Assembly (NCBI RefSeq): GCF_023238205.1 | Contig: NZ_CP096659.1 | Span: forward strand, 248,001-312,000 | Length of the DNA: 64,000 nucleotides | Origin: Halorussus limi | GTDB taxonomy: Archaea > Halobacteriota > Halobacteria > Halobacteriales > Haladaptataceae | Reading direction: 5' to 3' | Shown: positions 28,487 through 36,902 of the stretch, piece after piece | Layout: every line of letters begins with the position of its first letter | Numbering within the stretch: position 1 is the first letter of the stretch | Notes under the pieces: model-generated | What the model saw: only the letters and a program-made list of their open reading frames with translations | The model's database searches: none | Told to the model about the DNA's origin: nothing | Program-made: the position numbers and the translations under genes

Positions 28487-29998
28487 CTACTCCGCGTCGC
28501 CTTCGAGCGACTGCCACGAGAGTCGGAGGTTCCGCGCGGCGCTGGTCTGGTCGATGCGCCGGGCGGTGGTCCGGTTCGGCGCGTTCGCCAGCGTCTCGTC
28601 GTCCTCGGTCGCCACGGCGTCGAACGCCTCGGCGAGTTGGTCCAAGGTGTCTTTCCCCTCGATTTCTGTCGGTTCGGTCATCAGCGCCTCCGGGACGATT
28701 TCCGGCCACTTGGTCGTCGGCGGGTGGACGCCGTAGTCGAGCATGCGCTTGGCCACGTCGGCGGCGTCTTGGTCGCCCGCCGACGCGACGAACTCGTGGT
28801 GGAACGGTTCGAAGGGCACTTCGTAGTCCACCTGACTCGCGAGGTAGTTGGCGTTGAGGACCGCCTTCTCGGCGGCGTCCGCGAGGCCCTCGTCGCCGAG
28901 ACGCGCGATGTAGGCGTAGGCCTTCACGAGGACGAGCCAGTTGCCCTCGAAGCCGTGGACCTTGCCGACCGTGTTCTCCGGGTCGAACCGCTCGTACGCG
29001 CCGCCGTCGGTCGCTCGCGGCGTTCCGTCGCTCGCGCGTTCCGAGGACTCGCTTCGCTGGTCCTCACGCTCCCGCACGCGGGGTGCGGGCAGGAACTCCG
29101 CGAGGTCCGAGACCACGCCGACCGGACCCGCTCCCGGACCGCCGCCGCCGTGTGGCGTGGCGAACGTCTTGTGGACGTTGTAGTGCATGATGTCGAAGCC
29201 CATGTCGCCCGGCCGGGCCTGTCCGAGCAAGGCGTTGAGGTTCGCGCCGTCGTAGTAGAGCAGGCCGCCCGCGTCGTGGATGGTCTCGGCTATCTCCTCG
29301 ATGTCGCGCTCGAACAGGCCGAGCGTGTTCGGGTTCGTGAGCATGAACAGCGCGGTCCGGTCGCTCGCCGCGGCTTCGAGCGCTTCCAAGTCCACCCGGC
29401 CGTCGTCGCCCGACGGGAGTTCGACGACTTCGTAGCCGGCGAGCGCCGCGCTGGCGAAGTTGGTGCCGTGGGCGCTGTCGGGGACGATAATCTCGTCGCG
29501 CTGGTCGCCCTCGCCGTTGGCCTCGTGGTAGGCCTTGGCGACCAGAATGCCGGTGAACTCGCCCGCCGCGCCCGCCGGTGGCTGGAGACTGACGGCGTCC
29601 ATCCCGCCGATTTCGGCGAGGTAGTTCTGGAGGCCGTGCATGAGTCCGAGCGTGCCCTGCAGGCTTCGGTCCGAGCGGTCGTGGTGGACCGCGGCGCTCG
29701 GGAGCGCGGCCACGTCCTCGGTGAACTTGGGGTTGTACTTCATCGTACAGCTCCCCAGCGGGTACGGCCCGGAGTCGACGCCGTAGTTCATCTGGGAGAG
29801 TCGGGTGTAGTGGCGCGCGAGTTCGGGTTCTTCGAGCGCCGGGAGTTCGAGGCTGTCGCGGGTCAGGTCGTCGGGCAAGGGGGAATCGACCTCGACCTCC
29901 TCGCTGTTCTTCTCGGAGAGCAGCGGTTCGTACTGGCCCTCCGCGCTCTCTCCGTCCTTCGTCTTTCCGTCCGTCCAGCGTGCTTGGTCGTATTCCAT
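28487..29998 (-). CDS. gcvPB: glycine dehydrogenase (decarboxylating) subunit 2
   Basis: A 503-residue PLP-dependent P-protein beta subunit that decarboxylates glycine together with GcvPA. SQMNYGVDSGPYPLGSCTMK (68-87) and MHYNVHKTFATPHGGGGPG (271-289) are hallmark blocks; K277 is the PLP lysine. Residues about 308-336 are an added Ser/Glu/Arg-rich loop (REREDQRSESSERASDG) encoded by hairpin-forming DNA. Its ATG directly abuts the gcvPA stop, so translation is probably coupled. The C-terminus also has low-complexity character. Confidence 0.97.
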   Translation of the reverse strand: MEYDQARWTDGKTKDGESAEGQYEPLLSEKNSEEVEVDSPLPDDLTRDSLELPALEEPELARHYTRLSQMNYGVDSGPYPLGSCTMKYNPKFTEDVAALPSAAVHHDRSDRSLQGTLGLMHGLQNYLAEIGGMDAVSLQPPAGAAGEFTGILVAKAYHEANGEGDQRDEIIVPDSAHGTNFASAALAGYEVVELPSGDDGRVDLEALEAAASDRTALFMLTNPNTLGLFERDIEEIAETIHDAGGLLYYDGANLNALLGQARPGDMGFDIMHYNVHKTFATPHGGGGPGAGPVGVVSDLAEFLPAPRVREREDQRSESSERASDGTPRATDGGAYERFDPENTVGKVHGFEGNWLVLVKAYAYIARLGDEGLADAAEKAVLNANYLASQVDYEVPFEPFHHEFVASAGDQDAADVAKRMLDYGVHPPTTKWPEIVPEALMTEPTEIEGKDTLDQLAEAFDAVATEDDETLANAPNRTTARRIDQTSAARNLRLSWQSLEGDAE

Positions 29999-31342
29999 TC
30001 AGGCCACCTCCTCGAAGGCCGCGACGAGTCGGTCCGCGGCGTGTTCGTTCGCGTCGGTGATGCACACCTGCACTTCGTGTTCGCCGACGGCGTGGACCGC
30101 GAACCCTTCGGCTTCCAAATCCTCGACGACCGCGTTCGCGGGTTGGTCCGTGTGGACGACGAACTCCCGGAAGTGGTGGCGGTCGTGGACCGGCGCCCGG
30201 AGTCCGGTCACGTCGTCCAGTCGCCCGGCGAGGTCGTCGGCGAGTCGCACGCAGTCGTTGGCGAGGTCCACGAGTCCGTCGGGGCCGAGGTACGCCGCGT
30301 GGATGGCGGTCCGGAGCGCGACCCACGCCTGATTCGTACAGATGTTGCTCGTGGCGCGCTCCCGGCGGATGTGCTGTTCGCGAGTCTGGAGCGTCAGGGT
30401 GTAGGTGCGCTTGTCGGCGGCGTCCTCGCTCGCGCCGACGAGGCGGCCCGGCACCTGCCGGACGAAGTCCTCGCGGCAGGCGAACAGGCCCAGACCCATC
30501 CCGTAGGCGGTCGGGAGGCCGAGCGCCGCGGCGTCGCCGACCACCACGTCCGCGCCGACCGAGGCGGGTTCCTGCAGAATCGAGAGCGCGACGGGGTCGG
30601 AGCCGAGACAGAACAGCGCGTCGTGGTCGTCGGCGAGGGCCCCGATTTCGGCGAGGCCCTCCTCGACGGTCCCGCGCGTGGTCGGGTTCTCGGCGTACAC
30701 CATCACGGCGTCGTCGTCGATTGCCTCGGCCAGCGCGTCCGCGTCCGCGTTCCCGTCGTCGGTGGCGAACGTCTCGACCGAGAGGCCCGCGCCGTCGGTG
30801 TAGTTCTCCAACACGTCCTTGCGCTGGTCGAGGAGGTAGTCGGGCACCAGCACTCGGTCGCCGTCGGTCGACCGGACGCGCGCCGCGAGCAGGGCCGCCT
30901 CCGCCAGCGCGGTGGCGTGGTCGTACATCGAGGCGTTGACGATGTCGAGTCCGGTCAACTCGACCAGCATCGACTGGTACTCGAACAGGGCCTGCAGGAA
31001 CCCCTGCGTAATCTCGGGTTGGTACTGAGTGTAGGAGGTCAGGAACTCCGACCGCAGCGAGAGGTGGTCGACCAGCGAGGGCACGTAGTGTTCGTAGTGA
31101 CCTCGGCCGAGGAACTCGGTCAGGTCGTCGTTGCGCGAGAGCAGGCCCCGGACGTGGCGCTCGGCCTCCCGTTCGCTCCGCGCCTCGATGCCGAACTCCC
31201 CGTCGAACGCGACCGACTCGGGGATGTCGAACAGTTCCGTTACGTCGTCCGCGCCGACCGCGTCGAGCATCGCCGCGGTCTCGTCGGCGGTGTGGGGCGC
31301 GTACGGGCTTCCCCGGTCCCCAGACTCGTGTCGTCCGCTCAT
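29999..31342 (-). CDS. gcvPA: glycine dehydrogenase (decarboxylating) subunit 1
   Basis: A 447-residue P-protein alpha subunit, partner of Gcv[22 protein letters not shown] near residue 15, then [15 protein letters not shown], and [20 protein letters not shown] near 125 are the family's conserved stretches. [20 protein letters not shown] follows, as does [20 protein letters not shown] in the C-terminal half. The subunit gene lies 263 bases downstream of gcvH on the same strand, so the cleavage-system genes are probably transcribed as two blocks or with an internal promoter. Confidence 0.97.
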
Positions 31343-31605
31343 GTAGTCGGGGCTAGGGAGTGTACCGTTTTAATTGGGAGGTATTCGGTTTCGTTCTCCG
31401 GTTAACTCTCGTGGTGCCGGTGGGAGAACCGTGGCTAGTACGGAGCGACATCTCGGGAGGGAGACCGGCACATGGGAAGCGACCGCTCAGTAATCAACTG
31501 GCTCGGGAACCGAAACGGAGAAAGAGATTTTGTGGCCGTCAGAGCTACTGCGGTTGCTGTTCGCGCTCGACGCTTTCGACGAAAGAAATCAGAAGTTCCG
31601 AGGGG

Positions 31606-31989
31606 TTACTCGATTTGGTCGCGGTACTCGTCGGCCGACAGCAGGTCGTCGAGTTCGCCGTCGTCGGCCAGTTCCACTTCGAGCATCCAGCCGTCGCCGA
31701 AGGGGTCCTCGTTGACCAGTTCCGGCTGGTCGGCCAGCGCGTCGTTGACAGCGGTGACGGTGCCGCTGACGGGTGAGTAGAGGTCCGAGACCGCCTTGAT
31801 GGACTCCACGACGCCGAACTCGTCGCCCGCGGCGAGTTCGTCGCCTTCATCGGGCAACTCGACGAACACCACGTCGCCGAGTTCGTCCTGCGCGAAGTCG
31901 GAGATGCCGATGCGCGCGGTGTCTTGCTCGTCGTCTACCCACTCGTGCGATTCCAAGTACTTCCGGTCGTCGGGAACTTCGAAGCTCAT
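31606..31989 (-). CDS. gcvH: glycine cleavage system H protein
   Basis: A 127-residue lipoyl carrier protein. The motif [20 protein letters not shown] puts the lipoylated lysine at K65. [20 protein letters not shown] at the N-terminus and a C-terminal acidic helix complete the normal H-protein. It shuttles the aminomethyl group between the P and T proteins. It starts 2 bases after the gcvT stop, so it is clearly in the gcvT operon. Confidence 0.97.
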
Positions 31990-31991
31990 TG

Positions 31992-33083
31992 TTAGTCACT
32001 CAGGAATGGTACGTTCGCAATCTTTGCTTTTTTCGACTGGCCGCGGACCACCACGCGGACGACCGTGCCGGGGTCGGCGTAGTCGGTCGGCACGTAGCCC
32101 AGCGCGATGGGTTCGCCCAGCGTCGGACTCATCGTCCCGCTGGTCACTTCGCCGATGACGTGGTCGTCGGTGTCGGTCACGTCGTAGCCGTGGCGCGGAA
32201 CGCCTCGGTCCACGAGTTTGATGCCGACGAACTTCTCGTCGGTACCCTCCTCTTTGGCCTGTTCGAGCGCGTCTCGGCCGACGAACTCGGTGTCGAGGTT
32301 GACCGTCCACCCGACGCCCGCCTCGTAGGGGTTCCGGGGGTCGTCCTCCGCGTCGAAGTCCTGCCCGGAGAGCAGAAAGCCCATCTCCATGCGGAGGGTG
32401 TCGCGGGCACCGAGTCCGCAGGGCTGACAGTCGAACAGGTCCCAGACCGCTTCGGCGGACCCCGCGGGGAGGATAAGTTCGAAACCGTCCTCGCCGGTGT
32501 AGCCCGTGCGGGCGGTCCAGCAGTCCGCTCCGGCGAACTCGGCGTACTTCCCCTCGAACTTCGAGAGGTCCGACAGCGAGTCCCCGGTCGCGCCCGTCAC
32601 GAGGTCCGGAGCCTCCGGCCCCTGCACCGCGTACATCGCGTACTCGTCGGTGACGTTCTCGACGGTCGCGTCGAGGTCCCACTCGTCGCGGCGGTCGGTC
32701 CACCGCCGGTGCATCTGCTCGTCGTGGCCCGCGTTGGGGACGAAGAGGAACTCGGCGTCGTCGTCCTCGGGGAGTCGGTAGACCACGGTGTCGTCGAGGA
32801 TGGTCCCCTCCTCGTCGAGAATCATCGAGTAGTGGGAGTCACCGCGGCCGAGTTCGGTCACGTCGTTGGACGTGAGCCGTTGCATCAGGCGCTCGGCGTC
32901 GGGACCGGACACCTCGATTTGGCCCATGTGGGACACGTCGAAGATGCCGGCCTCCTCCCGGACCGCGCGGTGTTCGGCCTTGATGGAGTCGAACTCGACG
33001 GGCATGTCCCACCCGCCGAACTCCGTGAACGTCGCACCCGCGGCGTCGTGTACGTCGCGCAGCGGCGGCTTCCGAAGCGTCAT
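31992..33083 (-). CDS. gcvT: glycine cleavage system aminomethyltransferase (T protein)
   Basis: A 363-residue tetrahydrofolate-dependent aminomethyltransferase. [20 protein letters not shown] near residues 15-34 and [20 protein letters not shown] near 44-63 are folate-binding blocks. [20 protein letters not shown] and [20 protein letters not shown] follow, as does [12 protein letters not shown] start at ATG 33083 because [17 protein letters not shown] is the family start; the frame remains open further upstream. It heads the gcvT-gcvH block. Confidence 0.97.
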
Positions 33084-33180
33084 ACTGGAACGGTCGTCCG
33101 CCCGGTACGTAATGCTTTGTCTTCCGGACCGACGAGCGGTACTCGACTGCGAGGAAACGAACTGGGTCGGCGTCGCGCGG

Positions 33181-33360
33181 TCACGCCGGTTCGATGACAA
33201 TCTGGCCGTCTCGGAGTTTGTAGACGAGTCGGTCGCCCTCCTCGACGTCGAGTCCCTCCTCGGCGAACTCCTCGCGGACGGCTTTGATGAGACTGATGCG
33301 CCACCGCTGGGTCACTGTCGTCGTGCCGAGTATCTTTTCGTCGGAATCGTCTGAACTCAT
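33181..33360 (-). CDS. AbrB/MazE/SpoVT-type DNA-binding protein
   Basis: A 59-residue protein: MSSDDSDEKILGTTTVTQRW, RISLIKAVREEFAEEGLDVE, then EGDRLVYKLRDGQIVIEPA. TTTVTQRWRISLIKAVREEF and GDRLVYKLRDGQIVIEP form the swapped-hairpin AbrB fold. It has no partner toxin gene nearby, so it is more likely a transcription regulator than an antitoxin. It lies 97 bases upstream of gcvT on the same strand and could regulate it; that is inference. Confidence 0.88.
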   Translation of the reverse strand: MSSDDSDEKILGTTTVTQRWRISLIKAVREEFAEEGLDVEEGDRLVYKLRDGQIVIEPA

Positions 33361-33726: not shown

Positions 33727-34413
33727 TCACAACTCCATCCACGGGGTCTTCGCGTCGATTTCGGGCGCGTACCAGCGCTGTTCGGGGTTCCGTCGCGGCC
33801 GCCTCCGGAGTTCGACGCGCGCGTCGAACAGACCCATGAGGTCGTCCACGATTTCGTCGTCGGGAACCCGGAGGTGATAGTGAGCCATCCCGTGAACGCT
33901 CCGGACCGTCGCGCAGAGCGTGCCCAGGACGTGACGAGTCGCCGCGCGGTCCTCCTGCACCAGGGGAAACAGCGAATCGACGCCGACGCGGAGTTCCGCG
34001 GGGTCGAGACCGTCGGCTCGCTCGTCGTAGAAACTGATGGCGGTCTGAATCTCGTCGCAGAGCTGTCGGGCGTCGTCGGTCCGGAGCGAGTCGGAGTCGG
34101 GCGTGAACCCCTGCGCCGTCGCCGGGACCGACCGCTCGCCGCGGCGCTGGTCGATAATCCACGTCGTGGGGTCGTCGAAGGAGGCGTCGTCGGGGAGACG
34201 CGTGGCCGCGTTCCGAATCGTCTGGTCGGTCAGTCCGAGGACGCGGAACCGGCGGTCCTCGCGGCCGAAGAGGGACCGAGAGGCGCGGGCGGAAACCGCG
34301 TCGGGGACTTCGCCGGTGAGCAGGATATTGCTCCCGGTTCGCTTGAGTTTCGCGAGCCACTCCGAGAAACGGGGATTCGCTCCACTCCCGCGAAAACGAA
34401 GTTCGGTGGTCAT
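33727..34413 (-). CDS. conserved haloarchaeal DUF7504-like protein
   Basis: A 228-residue soluble protein. The N-terminal core LKRTGSNILLTGEVPDAVSA, ASRSLFGREDRRFRVLGLTD and TIRNAATRLPDDASFD matches a haloarchaeal family that I recall as DUF7504 (unverified). The core looks like a degraded P-loop fold: ILLTGEV, but no GxxxxGK. The C-terminal half is helical, with LCDEIQTAISFYDERADGLD and HVLGTLCATVRSVHGMAHYH. It is divergent from the 44-residue hydrophobic peptide gene and close to a CHAT protease gene. Possibly one functional cassette; function unknown. Confidence 0.75.
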   Translation of the reverse strand: MTTELRFRGSGANPRFSEWLAKLKRTGSNILLTGEVPDAVSARASRSLFGREDRRFRVLGLTDQTIRNAATRLPDDASFDDPTTWIIDQRRGERSVPATAQGFTPDSDSLRTDDARQLCDEIQTAISFYDERADGLDPAELRVGVDSLFPLVQEDRAATRHVLGTLCATVRSVHGMAHYHLRVPDDEIVDDLMGLFDARVELRRRPRRNPEQRWYAPEIDAKTPWMEL

Positions 34414-34669
34414 TTACTCATTTTGTCGGAGTTTACTATGATAAAATTTCCGGAATTTAGGGCCGGATAGATACCGGTACGGCGGTGCGTCTCGGTCAGA
34501 TGTGCTTCGGCCGCCACAGAACCGGAAGGAGGCCCCAGTTGTTTTGCCAACCGAGATCGAACAGTCGCATTGAGTTAGCTTCGCCCTCGTTCACCGACTT
34601 TTCTGATATATTTCATAGTTAGAATAATTAAGAAAAATATAATTTACGGCGTATATACAAGACTAGTAC
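34414..34669. promoter_or_regulatory. AT-rich divergent promoter region of the peptide gene
   Basis: The right half is strongly AT-rich (AATAATTAAGAAAAATATAA, near 34623-34642). The TATAAT-like box near 34636-34645 lies about 27-32 bases before the ATG at 34670, and GTATATACAA (34651-34660) is nearer. The left half should hold the promoter of the DUF7504-like gene. The composition differs clearly from the surrounding coding DNA. Confidence 0.5.
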
Positions 34670-34804
34670 ATGCCAAGCACAAACGTACTCGCTCAACTGA
34701 AACAGCATCCGCGGCTGATTGGTTTCCTATTTACTACTGGAGTGGTGCTAGCGCAAGCAGGGAACGTTGCGGCAAACAGTGCAGGTTTGACCAACGGTCC
34801 ATGA
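34670..34804 (+). CDS. 44-residue hydrophobic peptide (DUF7503-like)
   Basis: The frame encodes MPSTNVLAQLKQHPRLIGFL, FTTGVVLAQAGNVAANSAGL and TNGP. After a short basic N-terminus (KQHPR) comes one hydrophobic stretch (LIGFLFTTGVVLAQAGNVAA). It is a single-span membrane or secreted peptide. The LKxHPRxIGxLFT pattern matches a short haloarchaeal family I recall as DUF7503, seen near CHAT-domain genes (unverified). Its stop is 4 bases from the convergent CHAT gene stop. Function unknown. Confidence 0.75.
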   Translation: MPSTNVLAQLKQHPRLIGFLFTTGVVLAQAGNVAANSAGLTNGP

Positions 34805-34808
34805 ATTC

Positions 34809-36902
34809 TTAAACATCTAAATCGAAGAACTCTCCGCTCCAATGGAGTTCATCGCCAATTTTAACCGGTGCAAAATCGGAGTTCAGTACCAATTTTAATT
34901 TTTCTTCCTTCATCCGGAACGTCCCGAGCAGTCCGGAGGTAAGATATCGAATTGAGGAGTCACCAATAAAAACAGCTAAGCTTCCTAATCGGTACGACGA
35001 GCTCGTATACGAATAATAATCGACCAAGTATTCGTTATTGTCCTTCCGAAGGTCGAATCTCACCGGTCCACCACTTTCACCCTCACACAGCGTCAAGCCA
35101 CCGTGGCCGACCGTTACGTACTCCATCGATACCGTTACCTCCATTTTCGCAATACTCAACGCCGAGCGAAGTCTAAACCCGGAGTTTAGCAACCGTGCAA
35201 GCGCCCGACCCACCTTCGTCGCGGCAGAGTGAACTACCTCCGCCAGCGTGACCACGCCGCCGCGACTGCCCTTTTCGACCAGTTTCGCGCCTTGCTCGTA
35301 CGACCGACACGCGTTCAAGACGAAGGCCTCTATACCGACCGATTCGAGCGAATCGGCGTCGAGAGAGCCATCTACGCATCGGAATCCCTCCTTGTCTACG
35401 TGGCCGATGTAGTGGAGGAAATCCGCCGACGATTCGAGCAGACTCGCGAGTTCGGCGACCGTCAGTTCCTCGTGAACCGATACGTCGTAGTTCACGAAGT
35501 CCCGGAGACCGTAAAACTCGCTGACCACGTTCTCCTCGGCCATGCGCGAGTCGTTGCAGACGACGTGGACCTCAATTTCCGACTCGTCGGGCGGCGTGCG
35601 CTCGGCCTCCCGGTGCAGGGAGTCTATCGTCACTTTGTTGGCACCGACGGGGTAGCCGTCGCCGACCCACGCGTGTTCGACCGTCTCGGCCGGTTCGACC
35701 TGAAACATCTCGTCGTCGGACTCCCAGTCACCGCCCGCGTTTCGGGCGAGGTCGCTCGCGCTCCGGGTAAAGTCACCCGAGGCGACTGCCGCTCTGGTGA
35801 ACTCCTCGATGCCCTCTAGCGTGGATTGGGGCGAGCGGGGTTTCGGACTCTCGGGCGTCCGCAGCAACGAGAGTTCGTGCGCGAAGTGCGGGAGCGCGGG
35901 CGCGTTCTTCGCCTCGGGAACGATGTCAGTGGTGAGATGCCAGTCGAGGACGTGGGGCTCCAGCACGTCGTACGGCACCGCGAGATACGCGCGCAACTGC
36001 TCGGCGAGCGGTCGCCCGTAGAGGTCGGCGAAATCGAGGTCCACCGACGGTTCGACCTGCTCGCGCTCGTGGAGGTCCACGGGGTAGTAGCCCTCTGTCC
36101 GAGTCAGACAGTCGAGGAAGAAGACCTGCTTGAGGACCCGATTGACCGTCGCCTCGTAGCCGTCCGGTCCGTCGAGCGGATACTCGAAGTCGCCCGCCAC
36201 CAGCCGCGGCTCCGCGCCGTTGACGACTTCCGCACCGAGATAGTACGCCAGCGACGCTATCGGATAGACGCGCTCGCGTTCGGGCGGCAGGACGAGTTCG
36301 ACGTCCGTGTCCGGAACGTCGATGTCGCCCGACACTTCGAACGAGTCGCCGCGCTCGATTCGGGGCGGGTAGCCCCGAAGCGTCGGGAACGAGCGCTCGC
36401 AGGAGGTCGTCTTCAGCGCGGACCCGAACCGCGAGACCGCCGCCATCGCGTCTTCCACGTCGTCGGTGACGGTAATGGTCCCCACCGGGTGTTCGTGGAA
36501 CGACCGCGCGCCGACCCGAACGCGACGGTTCTCGCCGAACTTCACCGTGACCGACTCGTCGCCGGGGACGATTCTCAGGGTTCCGTCCACGACGAGGTAG
36601 ACTTTCATCGGCGTACTCTGAAGTTCGATGAGATAGTTCCCGTCGTCGAACTGCTGAACGTCGCTCGCGGTCGCGTCGGCTATCATCTCCCCGTCCTGTC
36701 GCCGAACGACCGTCGAGACCAGTTTCGGAATCTCGACCGCCGTGGCGCGAAACCCGACAGCGTCGTCCACGGGGAAGTAGAACTCGTCGGTCGATGCAGC
36801 CTGCGGTTCGACGGACTCGGGAGTGTACAACTCGAACCGGACGCTCTCGATGGGGTCGAAGATGCGGACTCCGGTGCGGTCCTCGAGCGCGTCGAACCTC
36901 AT
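34809..36902 (-). CDS. CHAT-domain (caspase-like) protease
   Basis: A 697-residue protein. Residues 1-280 form a haloarchaeal N-terminal region rich in beta-strands (VRFELYTPESVEPQAAS). Residues about 430-600 hold the CHAT caspase-like domain: LHYIGHVDKEGF gives catalytic H501, and FVLNACRSYEQGAKLVEKGS gives C532 with the typical following helix. LLESSADFLHYIGH and GGVVTLAEVVHSAATKVGRA fit too. The last ~130 residues are encoded by distinctly AT-richer DNA. CHAT proteases cut partner proteins in several bacterial conflict systems; the target here is unknown. No signal or membrane segment. Confidence 0.88.
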   Translation of the reverse strand: MRFDALEDRTGVRIFDPIESVRFELYTPESVEPQAASTDEFYFPVDDAVGFRATAVEIPKLVSTVVRRQDGEMIADATASDVQQFDDGNYLIELQSTPMKVYLVVDGTLRIVPGDESVTVKFGENRRVRVGARSFHEHPVGTITVTDDVEDAMAAVSRFGSALKTTSCERSFPTLRGYPPRIERGDSFEVSGDIDVPDTDVELVLPPERERVYPIASLAYYLGAEVVNGAEPRLVAGDFEYPLDGPDGYEATVNRVLKQVFFLDCLTRTEGYYPVDLHEREQVEPSVDLDFADLYGRPLAEQLRAYLAVPYDVLEPHVLDWHLTTDIVPEAKNAPALPHFAHELSLLRTPESPKPRSPQSTLEGIEEFTRAAVASGDFTRSASDLARNAGGDWESDDEMFQVEPAETVEHAWVGDGYPVGANKVTIDSLHREAERTPPDESEIEVHVVCNDSRMAEENVVSEFYGLRDFVNYDVSVHEELTVAELASLLESSADFLHYIGHVDKEGFRCVDGSLDADSLESVGIEAFVLNACRSYEQGAKLVEKGSRGGVVTLAEVVHSAATKVGRALARLLNSGFRLRSALSIAKMEVTVSMEYVTVGHGGLTLCEGESGGPVRFDLRKDNNEYLVDYYSYTSSSYRLGSLAVFIGDSSIRYLTSGLLGTFRMKEEKLKLVLNSDFAPVKIGDELHWSGEFFDLDV

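Follow-up and report, generated by a model that had tools for sequence, protein, structure and literature searches.

What does a candidate caspase-like protease have to do with a 44-residue peptide whose gene meets its own tail-to-tail, with only 4 nt between the two stop codons? The question is raised by a locus of the haloarchaeon Halorussus limi (contig NZ_CP096659.1 of assembly GCF_023238205.1), which lies in the 64,000-nucleotide stretch analysed here (positions 248,001 to 312,000 of the forward strand; hereafter the window, whose own numbering is used for the features listed below). A first-pass annotation, made from the letters of the window, had proposed a cassette of three genes, in which a CHAT protease gene is convergent with the gene for a short hydrophobic peptide and the peptide gene is divergent from a gene for a protein with a degraded P-loop-like core, here assigned to DUF7504. 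The three open reading frames (ORFs) are present where that annotation placed them and in the orientations it described. Comparison across haloarchaea indicates that the peptide, a member of DUF7503, is likely the dedicated partner of the protease, an archaeal enzyme that has not been studied before. New here, judging from these comparisons, is a Gly-Pro tail that forms the common selected element of the partners and that also has a tandem-repeat version. The features of the pair are:

34809..36902, minus strand: CHAT/caspase-like protease of 697 aa (ORF call, homologue alignment, structural model and fold matches), with a predicted beta-rich N-terminal part (residues ~1-147), a mixed alpha/beta lobe (~148-350), a disordered linker (~355-400), a caspase-like lobe (~437-610) and a C-terminal beta part
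34670..34804, plus strand: DUF7503 peptide of 44 aa, MPSTNVLAQLKQHPRLIGFLFTTGVVLAQAGNVAANSAGLTNGP, with a hydrophobic segment at residues ~16-34 (Pfam PF24335; purifying selection on the family)
34775..34801, plus strand: variable nine-residue tail NSAGLTNGP, following V33-A34-A35 (AxA-like), delimited by column entropies counted from the C-terminus and by alignment
34796..34801, plus strand: C-terminal Gly-Pro codons, immediately 5' of the stop codon
34638..34643, plus strand: TATA-like element TATAAT, spanning -32 to -27 relative to the ATG of the peptide gene

The pairing of the two genes is not due to chance and is among the tightest in haloarchaea. Among 145 sampled genomes of the class, DUF7503 was found in 120 and the CHAT family in 131, and none of the 14 CHAT-less genomes carries DUF7503 (Fisher p 4e-13, phylogeny not accounted for). 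At 148 of the 150 DUF7503 loci the peptide gene is convergent with and adjoins a CHAT gene (131 by coordinates and 17 more on inspection), the last codons of the two genes being separated by a median of 7 nt (range -14 to 226); of the other two loci, one is convergent at ~1 kb, and the other, in genome G049, is detached and lacks the Gly-Pro end. Furthermore, the peptide is found at the 3' end of each of the 24 CHAT loci from named genomes, including L013, where the body of the peptide is masked and the tail ...NAGP is visible. The first-pass annotation had stated, unverified, that the two families lie near each other in other haloarchaea, and had made its proposal hinge on co-occurrence across genomes; the neighbourhood statistics bear out both. 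In a phylum-wide sample, DUF7503 was confined to the order of the window, with none outside haloarchaea.

Halorussus limi itself has at least six CHAT genes that face a peptide ending in Gly-Pro, with six different tails: NSAGLTNGP in the window, NGASTNAGP, GIAVTCYGP, GSAGARFGP, ...DTHPGP and ...GGSAGP. One of these CHAT genes (C2:232139-234486; L026 4161-6472), facing the intact peptide with the tail GSAGARFGP, is split over two frames, which reflects either decay or a sequencing error. In another genome (L149; G012 C1:482600-490600), a single CHAT gene has two DUF7503 copies beside it, which are adjacent to each other and identical in their tail, SNTSSISGP.

The window peptide matched the DUF7503 model with 59.4 bits (cut-off 27; E 2.6e-16). 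Among close pairs, the ratio of non-synonymous to synonymous differences per site (pN/pS) was 0.146 for the body of the family outside the tail, and TATA-like elements are most frequent, across the family, at -33/-32 relative to the ATG. Both observations argue that the short ORF singled out by the first-pass annotation is a genuine gene. In haloarchaeal leaderless transcripts, a TATA-like element is expected at about -33/-32 of the ATG, and the position of TATAAT in the window is consistent with a leaderless transcript of the peptide. An AT-rich, TATA-like element precedes each of the three genes.

What is conserved in the family is above all its final residue pair. Exactly Gly-Pro terminates 80 of the 86 distinct DUF7503 proteins, and comparison of 46 close pairs gave 46 synonymous and 0 non-synonymous differences in these two codons, against a pN/pS of 0.37 in the seven residues that precede them. 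The most variable columns of the family are -3 to -8, small residues are conserved at -11/-12, and [AV]-x-A occupies positions -12 to -10, the last of them being Ala in 68 of 80 proteins. In genus g7, for example, the hydrophobic part is near-identical and the tails differ (NMATVNPGP, NIAKTNPGP, NQAAVNPGP and others). A divergent DUF7503-like peptide that ends in ...TPTPVPKSQ, without Gly-Pro, was found beside CHAT on a Halorussus caseinilyticus plasmid (NZ_CP119812; L162 6029-6175, minus strand).

None of 704 ORFs of at least 200 aa ends in Gly-Pro, and the CHAT-facing ORFs outside DUF7503 with this end numbered 10 against an expectation of 0.11. GC-rich DNA yields chance Gly-Pro-ended ORFs too rarely to explain this, the background measured being 0.0072 per kb per strand. 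Common descent of the end from one DUF7503 ancestor is partly true: the proteins at L027, L082, L120 and L125, with their [HN]P[RK], are seemingly divergent members of DUF7503, L128 being grouped with L082. Descent is nevertheless an insufficient explanation, because Gly-Pro is under selection in close pairs and because two kinds of soluble protein, described next, share the tail only.

In genus g43, the slot behind CHAT holds a soluble protein made of 2-14 tandem 13-aa units with the consensus [YFM][TN]ADGNxx[GA][IV]SGP. Nine such repeat loci adjoin CHAT; the repeat genes, convergent with CHAT, are at L129 7883-8449 (minus strand), L130 7933-8268 (minus strand) and L151-L158. The 13 units of the G080 protein differ by many synonymous codon changes and keep T-A-D-G-N-S-G-G-I-S-G-P (12 of 13 residues invariant), which points to selection on every unit, internal ones included. 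When the proteins are aligned from the C-terminus, the repeat Asp falls on Ala -10 of DUF7503 (T-A-D|G-N-S-G-G-I-S-G-P versus V-A-A|G-N-H-V-G-I-S-G-P), and [YFM]-[TN]-A-D|G looks like the tetrapeptide site of a caspase, although this is a resemblance only. Three further genera (L079, L086 and L096; also L126 and L127) encode, 3' of CHAT, soluble basic proteins that are short (44-61 aa) and have in common only the end R..RVS[TS]YGGP. Neither the repeat nor the VS[TS]YGGP proteins have a hydrophobic span or a signal sequence; lacking the span, they presumably keep their tails in the cytoplasm, where CHAT, which has no signal peptide, is located.

The protease was assigned by fold and dyad rather than by profile. 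Its match to the Pfam CHAT model PF12770 (11.6 bits, E 0.19) is under the 24-bit cut-off, none of 26 homologues reached E <= 0.01 with that model, and a search with a CHAT profile against the sequences of solved structures gave nothing useful. The predicted structure (mean predicted local distance difference test score 86, predicted template-modelling score 0.87) superposed over residues ~320-610 on gingipain R (Z 21.4) and over residues 437-609 on SAVED-CHAT (PDB 8tl0; Z 17.9, 168 residues, 19% identity), with further matches to separase (Z 17.4), the DdvA anti-sigma factor (Z 16) and the tetratricopeptide repeat (TPR)-CHAT protein Csx29 (Z 13-14). The matches to 8tl0, separase and gingipain place the model in the caspase-like fold of clan CD, and the clan motifs H..GH and [LIVMF]N.C are both present. 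The window protein is thus a candidate CHAT/caspase-like protease, with the following putative catalytic codons:

35400..35402, minus strand: candidate catalytic His, H501 (HYIGH), invariant in 27 homologues
35307..35309, minus strand: candidate catalytic Cys, C532 (LNAC), invariant in 27 homologues

These are the residues that the first-pass annotation had picked as the dyad, and across the 27 diverse homologues, in the motifs HY.GH and LN.C.S, they are conserved without change. The window copy is intact in its dyad, although dead copies exist elsewhere: the dyad is lost only in side branches, where some tandem paralogues lack both residues. At L101, L103, L106, L110 and L114, such paralogues, up to three in a row, retain a conserved N-terminal part, lack the dyad and a Gly-Pro peptide, and are apparent pseudoproteases. 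At L105 (G023 C1:412000-428000) there are three near-identical full-length tandem CHAT genes with intact dyads and no Gly-Pro peptide nearby.

A peptide lies next to 68 of 90 CHAT copies with the dyad versus 0 of 13 without it (Fisher p 1.4e-7), which is consistent with a role tied to proteolysis. As proof that the peptide is a substrate, this dependence was rejected, since the tree holds only 4 dyad changes and 3 independent pairs; it is consistent with such a role.

The pairing, the conservation of the dyad, the selection on the Gly-Pro end and the difference in carriers can be read from the sequences themselves. The mechanism that we infer from them, and which we consider somewhat better than evenly probable, is that the unit consists of CHAT and a dedicated partner whose C-terminal Gly-Pro tail CHAT recognises, the rest of the partner being a carrier. 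The pair would comprise a cytoplasmic caspase-like protease and a small protein whose working part is the tail, and CHAT would read that tail directly in its active-site cleft, either as a substrate to be cleaved or as a product-like ligand that inhibits, two modes that look the same at sequence level. The carrier would be a hydrophobic span in most species, including that of the window, a soluble array of 2-14 units in one genus and a short soluble protein in three. The three partner architectures have nothing in common but the tail and their position behind CHAT, and the simplest way to read this is that function resides in the tail and that CHAT is its reader. The proposal of the first-pass annotation that the peptide is a candidate partner of the protease is supported by the recurrent pairing and the conserved dyad.

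Several observations weigh against this reading. Insertion of the DUF7503 span with its N-terminus inside would place the tail outside, on the other side of the membrane from CHAT. Gly-Pro is missing from some DUF7503 tails, and 17 dyad-bearing CHAT copies have no detectable neighbouring partner. The association between dyad and peptide comes down to ~4 dyad changes and 3 independent pairs and is not significant on the tree. Finally, a change in the CHAT specificity pocket that would match the shift from Ala in DUF7503 to Asp in the repeat genus at -10 was sought, and no convincing position was found near the active site.

The strongest rival holds that DUF7503 gives rise to a secreted nonapeptide, freed by cleavage of a signal sequence after Ala -10 and sensed after uptake by the cognate CHAT copy or DUF7504. 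Signal precursors of Bacillota such as Phr, PapR and AimP of the arbitrium system are proteins of ~40-50 aa that have a hydrophobic leader and, at the C-terminus, a short variable stretch closing in a fixed motif, and that are encoded beside a responder gene. DUF7503 is like them in size, leader, fixed end of a variable tail and gene adjacency, whereas the responder here would be a protease and not a TPR regulator, some partner versions are leaderless, and export is hypothetical here. The [AV]-x-A motif with its frequent Ala -10, the fixed nine-residue spacing, the conserved leader, the near absence of charged residues from the variable tail and the different tails of paralogous pairs in one genome would all suit such a precursor, as would the repeats, which resemble multi-copy precursors ([YFM]-[TN]-A-D followed by G-N-x-x-[GA]-[IV]-S-G-P). 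However, conservation of the leader far exceeds that of a generic signal sequence (pN/pS as given above), and neither the repeat nor the VS[TS]YGGP proteins have one, contrary to a general export route. Moreover, the disk-forming signal of Haloferax volcanii survives proteinase K and hence is no large peptide (PMC12240190). We therefore regard secretion as unlikely.

The soluble partners, which share with the others only the tail, also make it less likely that the peptide is a membrane effector or toxin that CHAT cuts and releases, or restrains, in a phage-defence or cell-death module, as the first-pass annotation had proposed. The hydrophobic span of most versions, the caspase-like fold and the variable copy number of CHAT, with decayed and tandem copies as in conflict genes, would fit that proposal. 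Yet most haloarchaea have one chromosomal copy, the PADLOC profiles gave no match except a spurious sub-threshold TIR-effector hit (E 0.04), and CHAT was absent from phage records and IMG/VR and DUF7503 from IMG/VR; PHROGs gave no match either, and a viral origin was rejected on the same searches. The effector and phage-defence idea is thus unsupported and not favoured, and we consider it distinctly improbable. The close spacing of the last codons could also mean that the 3'-end arrangement itself matters, with overlapping convergent transcripts tuning CHAT expression and Gly-Pro-stop slowing termination in the absence of any contact between peptide and CHAT; this is very improbable, as selection constrains the protein sequence of the entire peptide and of each repeat unit, including internal Gly-Pro pairs that no stop codon follows.

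The third gene of the proposed cassette is a looser associate:

33727..34413, minus strand: DUF7504 protein of 228 aa with a KaiC/RecA fold lacking Walker A, a frequent, non-obligate neighbour (Pfam PF24336, structural model, fold matches and neighbourhood)

It matched PF24336 with 160.4 bits (cut-off 27; E 8e-47), and its model superposed on KaiC (Z 16.1 over 178 residues), which indicates a RecA-like fold. Walker A is absent, and GSNLLVVGxVPxE stands in that position in 14 homologues; the degraded P-loop-like core seen in the first pass was therefore correctly recognised. Among 60 loci with enough flanking sequence, DUF7504 is directly upstream of CHAT in 22 and beyond the peptide, as in the window, in 5, and Halorussus limi has 20 copies, mostly away from the CHAT-peptide locus. 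DUF7504 thus stands as a frequent neighbour and not as a fixed member of the cassette. Where it adjoins the pair, in roughly half of the loci, it would probably act as a regulator. In the same genome, near 1.468 Mb of C1 (L028 3528-6660), a DUF7504 gene without CHAT follows MCM and DUF7854 on the same strand, which suggests other roles for this family. Next to the cassette are glycine cleavage genes (gcvPB, gcvPA, gcvH and gcvT, read from translations; window 28487-33197), suggesting an ordinary metabolic neighbourhood with no obvious defence island.

Among known systems, Craspase of type III-E CRISPR offers a precedent, in which the CHAT cysteine protease Csx29 cleaves the dedicated partner Csx30, a protein of 565 aa encoded next to it (PMC10028731, PMC9729208). 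The window CHAT gene likewise adjoins the gene of a probable dedicated partner, and its product matches Csx29 over the caspase-like part. Unlike Csx29, however, the window protein has no TPR part and a modelled N-terminus that is beta-rich; the partners are 42-61 aa or repeat proteins, and the pair ranges across an entire archaeal class. No CRISPR genes were seen among the window ORFs inspected, no systematic cas search having been made. The SAVED-CHAT filament protease gives the best match to the CHAT lobe, restricted to that lobe, with no SAVED part detected in the window protein and a different partner. Gingipains R and K and separase share the two-lobe caspase-like arrangement (Z 21 and 17), but are secreted bacterial or eukaryotic enzymes with Arg/Lys sites, and none of them has a peptide partner with a Gly-Pro tail.

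Pfam lists DUF7503 and DUF7504 as families of unknown function, and in the literature searched nothing came up on DUF7503, DUF7504 or haloarchaeal CHAT. Public plasmid records of Halorussus and Halomarina call the peptide a 'hypothetical protein', and their label for the protease is 'hypothetical' or 'caspase family'. Thus, a pair present in most sampled haloarchaea has been passing under such names, and its two-residue C-terminal motif and natural 13-aa repeat offer a cheap, synthesisable handle on the protease, with tails such as NSAGLTNGP, GNSGGISGP and PYTADGNSGGISGPYTADGN. Extracts of Haloferax volcanii strongly cleave LEVD, VEID and IETD in a zVAD-fmk-sensitive manner, with no gene or archaeal homologue known for this activity (PMC3615174). 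Haloferax volcanii carries DUF7503 and therefore very probably has a CHAT protease too. Activity and family are both haloarchaeal and cysteine-protease-like, which makes CHAT a concrete candidate gene, though a candidate source only. A bolder version of the tail-recognition reading, which we hold to be doubtful, is a class-wide caspase-like signalling module: the protease would be controlled by, or make, short C-terminal Gly-Pro peptides, the g43 precursor would be cut at [YFM]-[TN]-A-D|G, and paralogous tails would serve as private channels in one cell. If this were true, archaea would have a genetically encoded peptide signal, and their orphan caspase-like activity would have a gene.

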